Assembly: GCA_004298675.1 (NCBI GenBank)
Contig: SCRI01000080.1
Location: forward strand, 1 to 64,000
Length of the DNA stretch: 64,000 bases
Reading direction: 5' to 3'
Source: a bacterium
Lineage (GTDB): Bacteria > Vulcanimicrobiota > Vulcanimicrobiia > Vulcanimicrobiales > SCRA01
A model generated the notes under the pieces. The model did not search any database. It saw only the letters and a program-made list of their open reading frames with translations, and was not told where the DNA came from. The translations under genes and the position numbers were made by a program. Of this stretch, positions 6,183 through 12,732 are shown one piece after another; the first letter of the stretch is position 1; the number at the start of each line of letters is the position of its first letter.

Positions 6183-6566
6183 ATGCCCATTTTCAAACTG
6201 ATCGAAGAGTTGGACGCGAAGCCGGAGGTCCAGGAGACGTATGCGAAGGTGAAAGCCCGCTATGGCGGCGCGATCCCAGCCGTGTATAAGGCGTTCGCAA
6301 ACGATCCCGCGTACTTAGCGTCGCTCAACGACCACATCGCACGCGTCATGGCACCGCGGAAGATCGACGCAAAGGCCAAAGAGATCATCGCGTTTGTTGT
6401 GGCCTCGATGAACGGCTGCGATTTTTGCTCGCATGCTCATGCCGCGGGCTTACGCCGCTTCGGACTGGACGACGAGGCCATCGCAGAGGTTCTCGGGGTA
6501 ACGGCGCTGTGGTCGGAGGTGACCCGCTTCAACATCGGCGCGCGGGTAAGCTGGCCGCAGGACTAG
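6183..6566 (+). CDS. Carboxymuconolactone decarboxylase / AhpD-family protein
   Basis: An all-helical CMD/AhpD-like protein of 127 residues. The redox motif is Cys79-D-F-Cys82 followed by His86 (CxxCxxxH), the arrangement used by AhpD-type peroxidase-supporting disulfide reductases. AGAGGAAACT precedes the ATG. It follows the exported isochorismatase-family hydrolase on the same strand. The natural substrate is not predictable; a role in peroxide or thiol metabolism is the simplest reading. Confidence 0.87.
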   Translation: MPIFKLIEELDAKPEVQETYAKVKARYGGAIPAVYKAFANDPAYLASLNDHIARVMAPRKIDAKAKEIIAFVVASMNGCDFCSHAHAAGLRRFGLDDEAIAEVLGVTALWSEVTRFNIGARVSWPQD

Positions 6567-6578
6567 CGCGAGCGCTCG

Positions 6579-7127
6579 TTATCGCGCCGTTGGCGCTGCC
6601 CCTGCAAAGCGTGCGATGCGCGACCACGTTGCGGCGGGGGCACCGTCCACGGCAACGATTTGTCCCTGGGCGTCGACGAGGTAATAGATATCTGGGTACG
6701 CGTGGGGATCGAGTTGGCGCATCTGGGCCTCGGTGAGCTGCCCCCAGTACCAGTTCGGAGCGGCTGCGGCCATACCCACGGCTTTTTGAAATGACGCGAG
6801 CGGCGGGCCGGGGTACCCGAGATCGTGAGCGACCTCTACCTGGACGACGTACACGCCACGCGCACGGAGTTCTCCGATGTGCTGGGCGACGACGGCGGTA
6901 CCGCCTTGGCACGACGAGCACCAGGTTGCCATCAGCCAGAGCACGTACGGATGGCCGCGCAACTCGCTCGGAGTCAGCGTCTTGCCGTCGATCAGGCGGT
7001 ACGCGAGCGACGGAGCGGAGCTGCCGGGGGCGAGGGCCTCCGTTGCGGCGGAGCCCGCCGCCCAAGAAGATGGCAGTGCGAAGGCCAGCGCGAGTGTAAC
7101 GAAGCCAAGAAACCACGACTGTCTCAT
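6579..7127 (-). CDS. Exported thioredoxin/TlpA-like protein
   Basis: 182 residues with a signal peptide (QSWFLGFVTLALAFALPSS...) and a thioredoxin fold carrying WCSSC at about residues 69-73 (ATWCSSCQGG) and a cis-proline region near HAYPDIYYLVD. It should act as a periplasmic thiol:disulfide oxidoreductase. ATG 7127 overlaps the stop of the upstream membrane-protein gene as ATGA, and GAAGGA lies upstream, so the two are translationally coupled; longer in-frame starts upstream run into that gene and lack a signal peptide at the N-terminus. The membrane protein may be its electron partner. Confidence 0.88.
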   Translation of the reverse strand: MRQSWFLGFVTLALAFALPSSWAAGSAATEALAPGSSAPSLAYRLIDGKTLTPSELRGHPYVLWLMATWCSSCQGGTAVVAQHIGELRARGVYVVQVEVAHDLGYPGPPLASFQKAVGMAAAAPNWYWGQLTEAQMRQLDPHAYPDIYYLVDAQGQIVAVDGAPAATWSRIARFAGAAPTAR

Positions 7128-7693
7128 GTAGGCGAATCCTTCGCAGCCCCAACGGCGCAGGGCGTGGTGAGGTTGTAGGCAGCGAACCACACGGAGAGGA
7201 GAACCAAGATCACCGAGCCGGCGATGAACGCGTCCGCGTGGATGGCGAAGAAGGCCTGGAACTTGCCGCTCGTCCGGAAGATGGCGGGGGCCGAGACACC
7301 GATCGCCGCCAGCACGAGCGGAATGACCGGCGTGCAGCACAGACTACTCGGCAGCAGGCTCGCAAAAAGGCCGCCCAGCCCGAGCAATCCGGATCTTCGC
7401 GGAGCGCCGGCGTTGCCGGGGCGAGCGTTGATGTTCAGCGTCAGGGTGAGGGCAAAGCCATAGCCGAGCAGGGCGGCAGACACGGCCAGCGGTGGAGTGA
7501 GGAAGTGCAATGCGCCTGGCCTGAGGGCGCCGAAGCTGCCCGCGGGAAGCGCGATCAGGTAGAAGCCAGTCAGTAGGGTTCCCAAGCCCAGCGCGGTGGC
7601 GTACGATCGCGCGGCGCCGGGGCCGGTGAAGACCAGCGTGAAGGCAGAAGCAAACCGGCGGGTGTTCCCAGTGCCAACGCTCCTCACGATCAA
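7124..7693 (-). CDS. Polytopic membrane protein with a Cys-Cys-Thr-Pro motif
   Basis: About 189 residues with five hydrophobic segments (YATALGLGTLLTGFYLIAL, LTPPLAVSAALLGYGFALT, LLGLGGLFASLLPSSLCC, IPLVLAAIGVSAPAIF and AGSVILVLLSVWFAAYNL). The vicinal pair in SSLCCTPVIP followed by AAIGVS resembles the first-helix Cys pair of MerT-type mercury transporters, but the full-length similarity is weak and no family call is made. It overlaps both neighbours by four bases (TTGA with the HAD gene, ATGA with the thioredoxin gene), so the three form one operon. A role in thiol transfer or metal movement across the membrane is inference. Confidence 0.75.
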   Translation of the reverse strand: MIVRSVGTGNTRRFASAFTLVFTGPGAARSYATALGLGTLLTGFYLIALPAGSFGALRPGALHFLTPPLAVSAALLGYGFALTLTLNINARPGNAGAPRRSGLLGLGGLFASLLPSSLCCTPVIPLVLAAIGVSAPAIFRTSGKFQAFFAIHADAFIAGSVILVLLSVWFAAYNLTTPCAVGAAKDSPT

Positions 7694-10263: not shown

Positions 10264-11271
10264 ATGCTCGGGATCGTGGAGCTGATTCTCTATACCGCGG
10301 AGGGTTGCCCGTTCTCGCCGCTTGCGCTCGAGCGGCTGCGGATCTTCGCCCAGGGCACGCCAGGGGTCGACGTGGAAGTGCGCGACGTAGCGCAGGCGGC
10401 CAGGTATGGTCACCGCGTCGCCGCGACGCCGACGATCATCTTTCCCAACGGCTGGCGCGTTGTTGGAACACCGGATTACGGAAGGCTACGGTCCATCCTG
10501 GCCGCCCTTTCCGGACAAGGACGGAGCATGCCGAACAAAGTCTGGTACCTCGAACAGAGCCGCTTGTTCAGAGGGGTGCCGCTGGACGAGGTCGAGCGTA
10601 TGGCGGACCTCTTCCACGAATACGACTACGATCCCAAACGGCTGATCTTCGGCGAGGGTGATCTCGGCGACGCCATCTATCTGCTCAAAGTCGGTCACGT
10701 CCGCCTCTATCGCCTCACGGAGGACGGCAAGGAGATATCCTTGGCGTTGCTCGGGCCCGGCGACGTGTTCGGTGAGCTCGCGCTCTTCGAAGAGACGCGG
10801 CGCTCGACGTTTGCCGAGACGCTCGACCGCGCCCATGTCTGCGCCGCCTCCATCGAAGACTTCACGCAGCTCATGGCGCACCGGCCGCAACTCACGATGA
10901 TGGTGGCGCGCGAGATCGCCCGCCGCCGCACCGAGGCCGAGACGCGCATCGCCGGCATGACCTACGCCAGCGTCCGTGGGCGCTTGGCGGCCGCGCTCCA
11001 ACACTTGCTCGGAGAGCACGGCGAGGATCTTCCCGGCGGCGGCAAACGCATCACGCTGCGACTCTCCCATCAAGAGCTTGCCAACCTCGCCGGAACCTCG
11101 CGTGAAACCTGCACGGTGGAGCTGGGGCGGATGCAGCGCGCGGGCTTGCTGGAATTCGACCGGGAGCACTGCATCGTCGTGCCGTGCCCCGAGCGCCTCC
11201 ATCCTGGGACGCTGGAACGCATGCTGCACGCCATCGTCGGCAGTAATCCGCACCAGCCGCTTGCGCGCTGA
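10264..11271 (+). CDS. Thioredoxin-fold / Crp-family fusion regulator
   Basis: 335 residues. Residues ~5-85 look like a small thioredoxin/glutaredoxin-like domain: strand ELILYTAEG, a CPFS (CxxS) active-site-like turn at Cys15, and a cis-proline segment VAATPTIIFPNG. Residues ~90-335 are a complete Crp/Fnr regulator: cyclic-nucleotide-binding fold (DAIYLLKVGHVRLYRLT, GDVFGELALFEE), dimer helix and winged helix (LSHQELANLAGTSRETCTVEL). An internal ATG at 10528 with AAGGAC upstream could also yield Crp alone. The flavoprotein reductase gene begins 24 bases downstream, so a redox-sensing role and control of that gene are plausible inferences. Confidence 0.85.
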   Translation: MLGIVELILYTAEGCPFSPLALERLRIFAQGTPGVDVEVRDVAQAARYGHRVAATPTIIFPNGWRVVGTPDYGRLRSILAALSGQGRSMPNKVWYLEQSRLFRGVPLDEVERMADLFHEYDYDPKRLIFGEGDLGDAIYLLKVGHVRLYRLTEDGKEISLALLGPGDVFGELALFEETRRSTFAETLDRAHVCAASIEDFTQLMAHRPQLTMMVAREIARRRTEAETRIAGMTYASVRGRLAAALQHLLGEHGEDLPGGGKRITLRLSHQELANLAGTSRETCTVELGRMQRAGLLEFDREHCIVVPCPERLHPGTLERMLHAIVGSNPHQPLAR

Positions 11272-11295: not shown

Positions 11296-12732
11296 ATGAA
11301 GTATCAGGAATACGACGTGGCCGTCGTGGGAGCCGGCATGGGCGGCGTGGCCGCGGCCACCACGGCCGCCGAGCGCGGCGCGCGGGTGGCGCTGATCGAG
11401 CGTGGAGCCATCGGCGGCACCTGAATGAACGTGGGGTGCATCCCCACCAAGGCCCTGGTCAGGGTCGCCGAGTTGATTCACCTGGCACGCCGTCCGCGCA
11501 ACGCCGAGCTTGGGTTCACCGTCGCGGGCGTCGACGTCGATTTTCCGCGCGTGATCGCACGTAAGGACGAAGTAGTCGCAGACGTCGTCGGCCGCCTCAC
11601 GCGTTCGCTGGAGAGTACCGAGCAGCTCGAGCTGGTGCGGGGCCAGGCGCGTTTCGTCGACCGCCGGACCCTTGCGATCGACGGCGAGTGCCGCCTCACC
11701 GCGGGGGCCGTGATCCTCGCCTCGGGCTCGCGGCCGGCGCGGCCCACCATCCCCGGTGCCGAGGAAACGGGCTACCTCACCAATGCCTCGATCATGGCGT
11801 TGGCGCACCTTCCGCGCCGGCTCGTCGTCGTCGGCGCGGGGCCGGTGGGTATGGAGTTCGCGCAGATGTTCGCGCGCTTCGGCAGCCAGGTGACGGTGCT
11901 GTTCCGCAGCGAGTGCGTTCTGCCGCACGGGGATCCCGACATCGGCAAAGCGCTGACCGAATATCTCGCCCGCGAGGGCTTGGAGATGGTGCCGCACGCG
12001 CGAGTGCTGCGCATGGAGCGTACGGGCGCGCACGACGGCGCTGCGCCGCGTGCCGTCATCGCCGACGTAAACGGCGAGGAGCGGCGCTTCGCGGCGGACG
12101 AAGTACTGCTCGCCATCGGACGGGAGCCCAACGCGCAGGCACTGGATCTCGCACGCGCCGGCATTACCACCACAGCTGAAGGTTGGATCGAGGCCGACCC
12201 CACGCTGCGCACGAGTGTCGAGGGAATCTTCGCCGTTGGCGATGCCATCGGGCATGCGAGCGGAAGTGAACTCTACACGCACGTCGCGGTGGCCGAAGGC
12301 GGTATCGCGGCGCGCAACGCGACCGGAGCGGCCGGCGAGCGCTTCGACCCTACCGTCATCCCCGGCGCGGTCTTCACCGAGCCCGAGGTGGCCCATATCG
12401 GATATACCGAGGCGCAGGCACGTGTGGCGGGGCTCACGCCGGTCGTTGCCACGTATCCCTTCGCTAAGATCGGCCGCGCGCGCGCCATGGGCGAACGCGA
12501 GGGGCTGATCAAAGTGCTCACGGATGCGGACAGCGGACGCGTCCTGGGTGCGCATCTCTTCGGGCCCAACGCGGGCGAGCTCGTCCACGTGGTGGCGACG
12601 GCGATGGCGACGGAGAGCCGCTCGCCACAGCCCATCCTCGATGCCATCTTCATTCACCCGACGCTGGCCGAGGGCGTGCAGTCGGCATTCGAAGAGCTGC
12701 TGAGCGCCATGCCCGCGCGCATGGCGCACTAG
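11296..12732 (+). CDS. Flavoprotein disulfide reductase (MerA/dihydrolipoyl dehydrogenase family), candidate selenoprotein with in-frame TGA
   Basis: A 478-residue class I pyridine-nucleotide disulfide oxidoreductase if the TGA at 11422-11424 is read through. Residues 1-42 give the FAD-binding fold (VVGAGMGGVAAA, ALIERGAIGGT). Position 43 is TGA, exactly where the family has the first redox cysteine of the GGTCxNVGC motif, giving U43-MNVG-C48. Beyond it are IPTKAL, the second dinucleotide fold (VVVGAGPVGMEFAQ), the FAD motif IFAVGDA, the dimer interface and the catalytic HPTLAE near the C-terminus. The C-terminal Cys pair of true MerA is absent. Two hairpins follow the TGA. No selABCD genes are in the window. 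Alternatives are a nonsense mutation or a sequence error (TGC to TGA). Initiation after the TGA, at ATG 11425, would lose the FAD site. Confidence 0.8.
11431..11466 (+). other. Candidate bacterial SECIS hairpins downstream of the in-frame TGA
   Basis: Hairpin A is a perfect six-pair stem, GTGGGG (11431-11436) with CCCCAC (11442-11447), loop TGCAT. Hairpin B pairs GGCCCT (11451-11456) with AGGGTC (11461-11466), including one G-U pair, loop GGUC (11457-11460). The loop of B lies 32 bases after the TGA, inside the range usual for bacterial SECIS elements, and begins with GG as in the known fdhF element; the loop of A is only 12 bases away. Part of A may simply follow from the conserved VGCIPT codons. 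Confidence 0.4.

Follow-up and report, generated by a model that had tools for sequence, protein, structure and literature searches.

The 64,000-nucleotide stretch of bacterial DNA analyzed here (hereinafter, the window) almost certainly encodes a selenoprotein, which represents a previously unlisted family that is found in many bacterial phyla, often beside mercury-resistance genes. We are highly confident that the product of the gene in question (positions 11296 to 12732, forward strand) is a selenocysteine-containing member of the flavoprotein disulfide reductase superfamily, and that its selenocysteine codon is decoded by SelB under the guidance of a hairpin. With no protein or selenium data at hand, this reading rests on the signals of selenocysteine (Sec) decoding and the family membership, which are computational observations; the thiol or mercury substrate is an inference from the gene neighborhood.

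The read-through gene and its active site

The reading frame extends from the ATG at 11296 to the TAG at 12730-12732 (479 codons, 478 amino acids) and is interrupted by a single in-frame stop, the TGA at 11422 to 11424 (forward strand), exactly as described in the initial annotation; the gene assignment rests on the open reading frame (ORF), the Pfam domains, the best PDB match and the ortholog described below. The TGA, codon 43, lies in the read-through context ERGAIGGT*MNVGCIPTKAL and occupies the slot of the first redox cysteine in the GGTCxNxGC motif, that is, the interchange-cysteine position; its reading as Sec is based on the ORF and on the homologs that carry TGA at this codon. The second redox cysteine, the flavin-side, charge-transfer residue of the resulting UxxxxC pair, is encoded by the intact TGC codon 48 (11437 to 11439, forward strand) and corresponds to an invariant alignment column (C48). 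The original proposal that the TGA replaces the first of the two redox cysteines stands. The HPTLAE motif (12655 to 12672, forward strand) aligns with the catalytic His-Glu dyad of disulfide reductases (His454 and Glu459), the histidine being replaced by tyrosine in canonical MerA (PMC10587081), and the C-terminus of the protein reads MPARMAH.

In the read-through protein, Pyr_redox_2 (residues 6-335, 212 bits) and Pyr_redox_dim (residues 355-464, 101 bits), the two domains of flavoprotein disulfide reductases, both exceed the Pfam gathering score, which was our test for membership in the superfamily. The top solved relative is the mercuric reductase 5x1y (297 bits), and lipoamide dehydrogenases are also among the best PDB matches. 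A 435-amino-acid ORF begins just past the TGA, with the ATG at 11425. Gene callers are likely to truncate such genes to ORFs of this kind, and the annotation of mer operons from phyla without cultured members is therefore probably incomplete.

Selenocysteine machinery and the predicted SECIS hairpin

The initial annotation called for a search of the same genome for selA, selB, selC and selD, and in this genome (3.03 Mb, 98.5% complete), SelA, SelB, SelD and tRNA-Sec are all encoded. The selA and selB genes are directly adjacent, in this order, on contig C71, which also carries the tRNA-Sec with the anticodon UCA, and selD, located on contig C43, has TGA as its own active-site codon (CAGU-ASK). 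An in-frame TGA is also present in an FdhA-like gene. Ordinary genes end in TGA, for example, that of the regulator at 10264-11271. The selA gene is common in the order to which the window belongs (51 of 61 genomes), so its co-occurrence with the reductase within the order is uninformative. Among the 50 genomes carrying TGA homologs, 44 encode selA above the cut-off, and tRNA-Sec was detected in five of the remaining six (in one, weakly); Jeotgalicoccus marinus is the only one of the 50 in which neither selA nor tRNA-Sec was detected.

The predicted bacterial SECIS, GGCCCU-GGUC-AGGGUC (11451 to 11466, forward strand; loop at 11457-11460), is located 32 nt after the UGA. Published limits for such elements include a loop of 3-9 nt, a stem of 4-16 bp, a G in the first two loop positions, a spacing of 16-37 nt and a minimum free energy of -7.5 or lower (PMC13188914). 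With a loop of 4 nt starting with GG, a stem of 6 bp and a spacing of 32 nt, the window hairpin meets the loop, stem, G and spacing constraints, and its energy (-8.8 kcal/mol in a 25-nt context, -7.4 as a bare stem) is borderline. Taken alone, this hairpin is unremarkable (null P of 0.044), and its counterpart in the congener has one mismatch. Across the family, a hairpin with a G-first loop is present in 39 of the 61 TGA loci compared to the expected 6.3 +/- 2.3, and in 1 of the 49 Cys homologs compared to the expected 5.9 +/- 2.1, under a null model in which synonymous codons were resampled from each gene's own codons and stems with at least 5 pairs at this position were counted; the sequences are related and hence these counts are not independent trials. 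For the 27 sequences in register, covariation analysis yielded 8 double-change cells with pairing kept versus 1.6 upon shuffling (0 of 500), and sliding the stem partner abolished this signal. Because these 27 sequences were chosen mainly for forming the stem, the covariation carries more weight than the percentage of pairing. The published energy limit, when applied to bare stems, is passed by 6 of the 61 loci (2.1 expected) and is too strict to separate the loci, the informative test being that for a position-specific stem.

A more proximal hairpin, GUGGGG-UGCAU-CCCCAC (11431 to 11447, forward strand), spans the NVGCIPT codons and may be incidental to coding; it was rejected as a SECIS for being too near the UGA and on conserved codons. 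Loci L063 and L107, which make up an actinobacterial Sec clade of their own, have another hairpin that is spaced 26 nt from the UGA and includes a compensatory change. No clean hairpin at the usual spacing was found in the Sec subclade with the GGTUVNEGC(V/I)PTK motif (L062, L074, L075, L080, L082, L087, L093, L099, L100, L116 and L122), although its ORFs carry no further breaks and selA is present in the respective genomes; the SECIS of this subclade may belong to another class.

Distribution, phylogeny and novelty of the family

A scan of about 85,000 genomes for the active-site pattern with TGA at the first cysteine yielded 61 TGA stretches, with approximately one expected by chance according to our own arithmetic; together with the window gene and its ortholog, there are 46 sequences that are open over at least 400 residues except for the TGA. 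Judging by the record titles, the hits come from Chloroflexota, Neomarinimicrobiota, Calditrichota, Gemmatimonadota, Acidobacteriota, Actinomycetota, Armatimonadota, Myxococcota and Bacillota. The comparison of this codon among homologs, which had been proposed at the outset, thus reveals TGA across phyla, and Cys homologs exist as well. Within the phylum of the window (149 genomes), four sites have TGA as the motif codon, and none has TAA, TAG or TGG; a viral scan produced no match. Two of our criteria for a bacterial selenoprotein, namely, that an in-frame TGA, as the sole stop, aligns with a conserved cysteine of homologs and is kept in at least two independent sequences, are both satisfied. 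One of the stretches (L104) looks like a chance match, and several others (L057/L120, L088, L105 and L108) carry further breaks. In Jeotgalicoccus marinus, an intact Sec ORF with a C-terminal CC (L070:4270-5649) adjoins merB and transposase genes; the related copy from Filobacillus (L088) is frameshifted although that genome has selA.

In the phylogenetic tree (68 rows), the main Sec group consists of 36 Sec and 4 Cys rows (support 99/95), and the window sequence belongs to an all-Sec group of 10 rows (support 89/93). The four Cys rows come from plasmids of Streptomyces, Rhodococcus, Deinococcus and Halorussus and represent a second reductase that is found in some mer operons. The Sec label requires at least six changes on this tree, which implies repeated Sec/Cys exchange or spread by transfer. 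The Sec rows that stand alone close to E. coli Lpd (L066 and L103) may be errors. The first of these, L066:2119-3519, is an Lpd-like gene that carries TGA at the corresponding codon and follows an E2-component-like ORF, in a genome where tRNA-Sec is present and selA was undetected; the gene has no hairpin, and an error cannot be distinguished from a true Sec E3.

The family is absent from the table of 119 prokaryotic selenoprotein families in a 2026 review (PMC13188914) and was not found by term searches of an earlier review (PMC9312934), the deep-Sep study (PMC12013277), the GOS survey (PMC2398784) and a 2006 survey (PMC1794560); subscription literature and database annotations were outside the scope of this comparison. 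Within these five sources, the original remark that no described selenoprotein of this type was known with Sec at this position remains valid. The 'putative mercuric reductase' of the reviews is a UxxU metal-binding protein (NF041115) with another active site (PMC13188914, PMC9312934).

Orthologs, selection and alternative readings of the TGA codon

Among the 61 genomes of the order, a congener encodes an ortholog (76% identity) with the same TGA as the sole stop; the other full-length relatives in the order are Cys enzymes with about 40% identity or less. For the window and congener genes, pS is 0.52, with pN/pS ratios of 0.27 after the TGA and 0.57 before it, and purifying selection acts on the window copy after the TGA. 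Codons 44-56 (39 nt after the TGA) are identical in the two genes; we estimate that, at the overall rate, all of the approximately 10 synonymous sites would remain unchanged in about 1 in 1000 cases.

The same genome contains, on contig C16, a second copy that lacks the first 177 codons (L051:13178-14083) and is oriented divergently to an arsR gene, after which come ORFs that are MerT-like and TlpA-like, as well as a 105-bp remnant of the Sec gene near this truncated copy (L051:12174-12278). In the congener, contig C59 (L057) carries a broken copy that shares the TGA of codon 43, has lost an internal segment, contains an extra stop and runs into arsR/rhodanese-like sequence. The presence of degraded copies in both genomes indicates that the gene family duplicates and decays in this genus; the window copy and the congener ortholog are intact. 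Decay of the gene in relatives had been named in advance as a potential refutation, and it is borne out for the duplicates but not for the congener ortholog.

The truncated C16 paralog and the broken C59 copy could be taken to indicate that the window gene, too, is a pseudogene or an assembly artifact, in which codon 43 of a regular Cys enzyme was mutated to a stop or misread. We consider this highly improbable given that a congener whose genome was assembled independently has the TGA as the only stop at a pS of 0.52, that purifying selection is detectable after the stop, that dozens of homologs share the TGA, and that the hairpin is present at the TGA loci, with a negative Cys control. The recurrence of the TGA in the congener and in far more stretches than expected by chance also bears out the original argument against a fortuitous nonsense hit. 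There is similarly little room for the possibility that the TGA is a true stop followed by a restart at ATG 11425, with the production of either two fragments or the 435-amino-acid protein alone: codon 44 is indeed ATG, right after the TGA, in both the window and the congener, but in many homologs it is GTC, ATC, CTC, ACA or CCT, which are not usual starts; moreover, conservation extends to the FAD-binding N-terminus that precedes the TGA, and the split would cut the redox-active loop. Least credible of all is the insertion of a different amino acid through a code change or near-cognate read-through, for which no evidence was found, whereas TGA ends ordinary genes in this genome, such as that of the aforementioned regulator, and the Sec machinery is complete. 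The pseudogene, reinitiation and code-change readings were therefore rejected on the basis of the congener TGA, the homologs, the hairpin and the normal TGA stops. Decoding of UGA-43 as Sec, as the initial annotation proposed, is supported by the machinery, the TGA across phyla, the hairpin with its Cys control and the purifying selection, and appears next to certain.

Genomic neighborhoods and a possible link to mercury resistance

A CRP/FNR-family regulator gene (10264 to 11271, forward strand) ends 24 nt upstream of the Sec gene and is probably co-transcribed with it. This regulator and the one at L052:10647-11846 contain a conserved N-terminal stretch (TAEGCPFSP...ATPT) that by eye is Trx/Grx-like, with no Pfam match. 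About 4 kb from the Sec gene, the window encodes a TlpA-like thioredoxin-fold protein (6579 to 7340, reverse strand; these are ORF bounds, and the true start is probably further in) and a membrane protein (7124 to 7693, reverse strand) whose MerT-like motif, SLCCTPxxPL, was recognized by eye, without an HMM match. A carboxymuconolactone-decarboxylase (AhpD-like) gene with a CxxC motif lies close to the Sec gene both in the window (6183-6566), in the congener and in L065 (L065:4490-4897). The gene order in the congener is arsR (identified partly by eye), MerT-like, TlpA-like and Sec gene, so that the homolog of the TlpA-like gene is directly upstream of the latter.

No HMM-confirmed mer gene was found beside the Sec gene in the window. 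The HMM-confirmed neighbors of its Sec relatives include MerB, MerT/MerTP, MerE and a MerR-family regulator, and seed searches placed MerB near eleven Sec loci, and MerB, MerT or MerE-like proteins near about twenty; some of the seeds had been drawn from these very loci, and the flanks are often short. A separate canonical MerA adjoins three of the four Cys relatives. Cys-containing MerA proteins of canonical appearance, with a CC tail, are encoded in the same locus as the Sec reductase at L074:5143-6555 and L118:2913-4808, the latter protein carrying a heavy-metal domain; the combination of MerA and a Sec reductase in one locus suggests a division of labor. At another locus, a neighbor of the Sec gene (L069:2499-2849) matches the DF family (seleno)protein NF049942.

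Enzyme identity and proposed mechanism

The initial annotation described the protein as MerA/lipoamide dehydrogenase-like; by the curated tests, it belongs to neither MerA nor LPD. The best HMM, TIGR02053 (MerA), scores 401.8 bits against a cut-off of 454.45, which none of the nine Sec proteins scanned reaches (the best is L084, with 445.9 bits), and the protein lacks the MerA combination of a C-terminal CC and Tyr, with no CC and with His454 in place of the latter. For dihydrolipoyl dehydrogenase, the TIGR01350 score of 393.1 bits falls below the cut-off of 408.8; the HPTxxE His-Glu dyad (HPTLAE, 454-459) is present and is kept in most Sec members. The glutathione and mycothione reductase cut-offs are not reached either (NF004776, 301.5 of 480; NF005884, 320 of 501), nor, with respect to the known Sec flavoproteins discussed below, is that of TIGR03385 (79.5 bits versus 578.8). 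Judged by its sequence, the protein appears to be neither a true MerA nor provably an LPD. The VLFRSE segment, which aligns with MQRSER of MerA, suggests the use of NADPH.

The CxxxxC pair next to FAD, common to glutathione reductase, lipoamide dehydrogenase and MerA, is among the best studied active sites, and a natural Sec at its first position in many lineages would provide a natural experiment on the contribution of selenium to this chemistry. The interchange function belongs to the first redox residue in this superfamily, which implies that the substrate would be contacted by Sec43, and the flavin by Cys48. Both the electron path and the part played by Sec are inferred from the superfamily. 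Under the proposed mechanism, SelB and Sec-tRNA would insert Sec at UGA-43, guided by the hairpin 32 nt downstream; NAD(P)H would reduce FAD, and FAD would reduce the Sec43/Cys48 pair, a selenenylsulfide in the oxidized form. Cys48 would face the flavin, Sec43 would be the solvent-side interchange residue attacking the substrate, and His454 and Glu459 would form the acid-base pair. Judging by the neighborhood, the putative substrate is either a disulfide of low molecular weight or an adduct of Hg(II) with a thiol, and the enzyme may maintain a reduced thiol pool when the cell experiences mercury or redox stress.

The likeliest role, by inference, is that of an NADPH-dependent disulfide reductase with Sec as the interchange residue that functions in thiol or mercury stress. 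A true mercuric reductase, converting Hg(II) to Hg(0) with Sec43 and Cys48 binding Hg, is possible but rather unlikely. The best HMM (TIGR02053, 402 bits) and the best solved relative (5x1y) are both MerA, many Sec relatives adjoin merB, merT and merR-like genes, three Sec proteins (L084, L070 and L086) have the C-terminal CC, and GbsMerA reduces Hg without it, while keeping the Tyr (PMC10587081). However, the score is below the MerA cut-off (454), the MerA Tyr is His in the window protein, and a separate canonical MerA with CC is encoded next to some of the Sec loci and next to most Cys relatives that are linked to mer genes. The His-Glu dyad, together with the separate canonical MerA next to the Cys relatives, favors a disulfide reductase that aids mercury resistance. 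We only tentatively entertain the broader scenario of a selenium-dependent mercury-detoxification reductase in many phyla, in which Sec was chosen for better binding and release of Hg(II) or mercury-blocked thiols compared to sulfur and the gene is carried from host to host by mer elements; if this is true, mercury resistance would depend on the selenium supply. The recurrent tie to mer operons makes the long-known selenium-mercury antagonism testable on a single enzyme.

Comparison with known systems

The window protein resembles MerA (TIGR02053; 5x1y, 1zk7) in the fold, the FAD/NADPH domains, the GGTCxNxGC site and the mer neighborhood of many of its relatives but has Sec for the first Cys, His for Tyr and no C-terminal CC. 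With dihydrolipoyl dehydrogenase, it shares the fold, the GGTCxNxGCIPxK motif and the HPTxxE dyad but differs in the presence of Sec at the first redox position, the absence of adjoining 2-oxoacid dehydrogenase genes and the Arg after the second beta strand (VLFRSE) that, by inference, is a feature of NADPH users. Animal thioredoxin reductase, a member of the same superfamily, contains Sec in a C-terminal GCUG extension, whereas the Sec of the window protein is in the N-terminal CxxxxC pair. The aforementioned second reductases of the Streptomyces, Rhodococcus, Deinococcus and Halorussus plasmids (L135, L137, L125 and L136), labeled 'mercuric reductase/lpdA', share the tree branch of the main Sec clade, contain HPTxxE, lack the CC and, as is the case with the Sec relatives, have TlpA/CcdA or ArsR neighbors; they differ in having Cys in the Sec position and no hairpin there. 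Two flavoproteins already known to contain Sec, CoA-disulfide reductase (UGxP) and type III sulfide:quinone reductase (HxxU), are likewise FAD oxidoreductases but represent other families with other Sec positions (PMC13188914). Finally, MerK and the glutathione reductases of mer operons are likewise non-MerA flavin disulfide reductases that serve mercury resistance, MerK-type glutathione reductases being thought to support it (PMC11227200); compared to these, the window protein belongs to a different subfamily and carries Sec.
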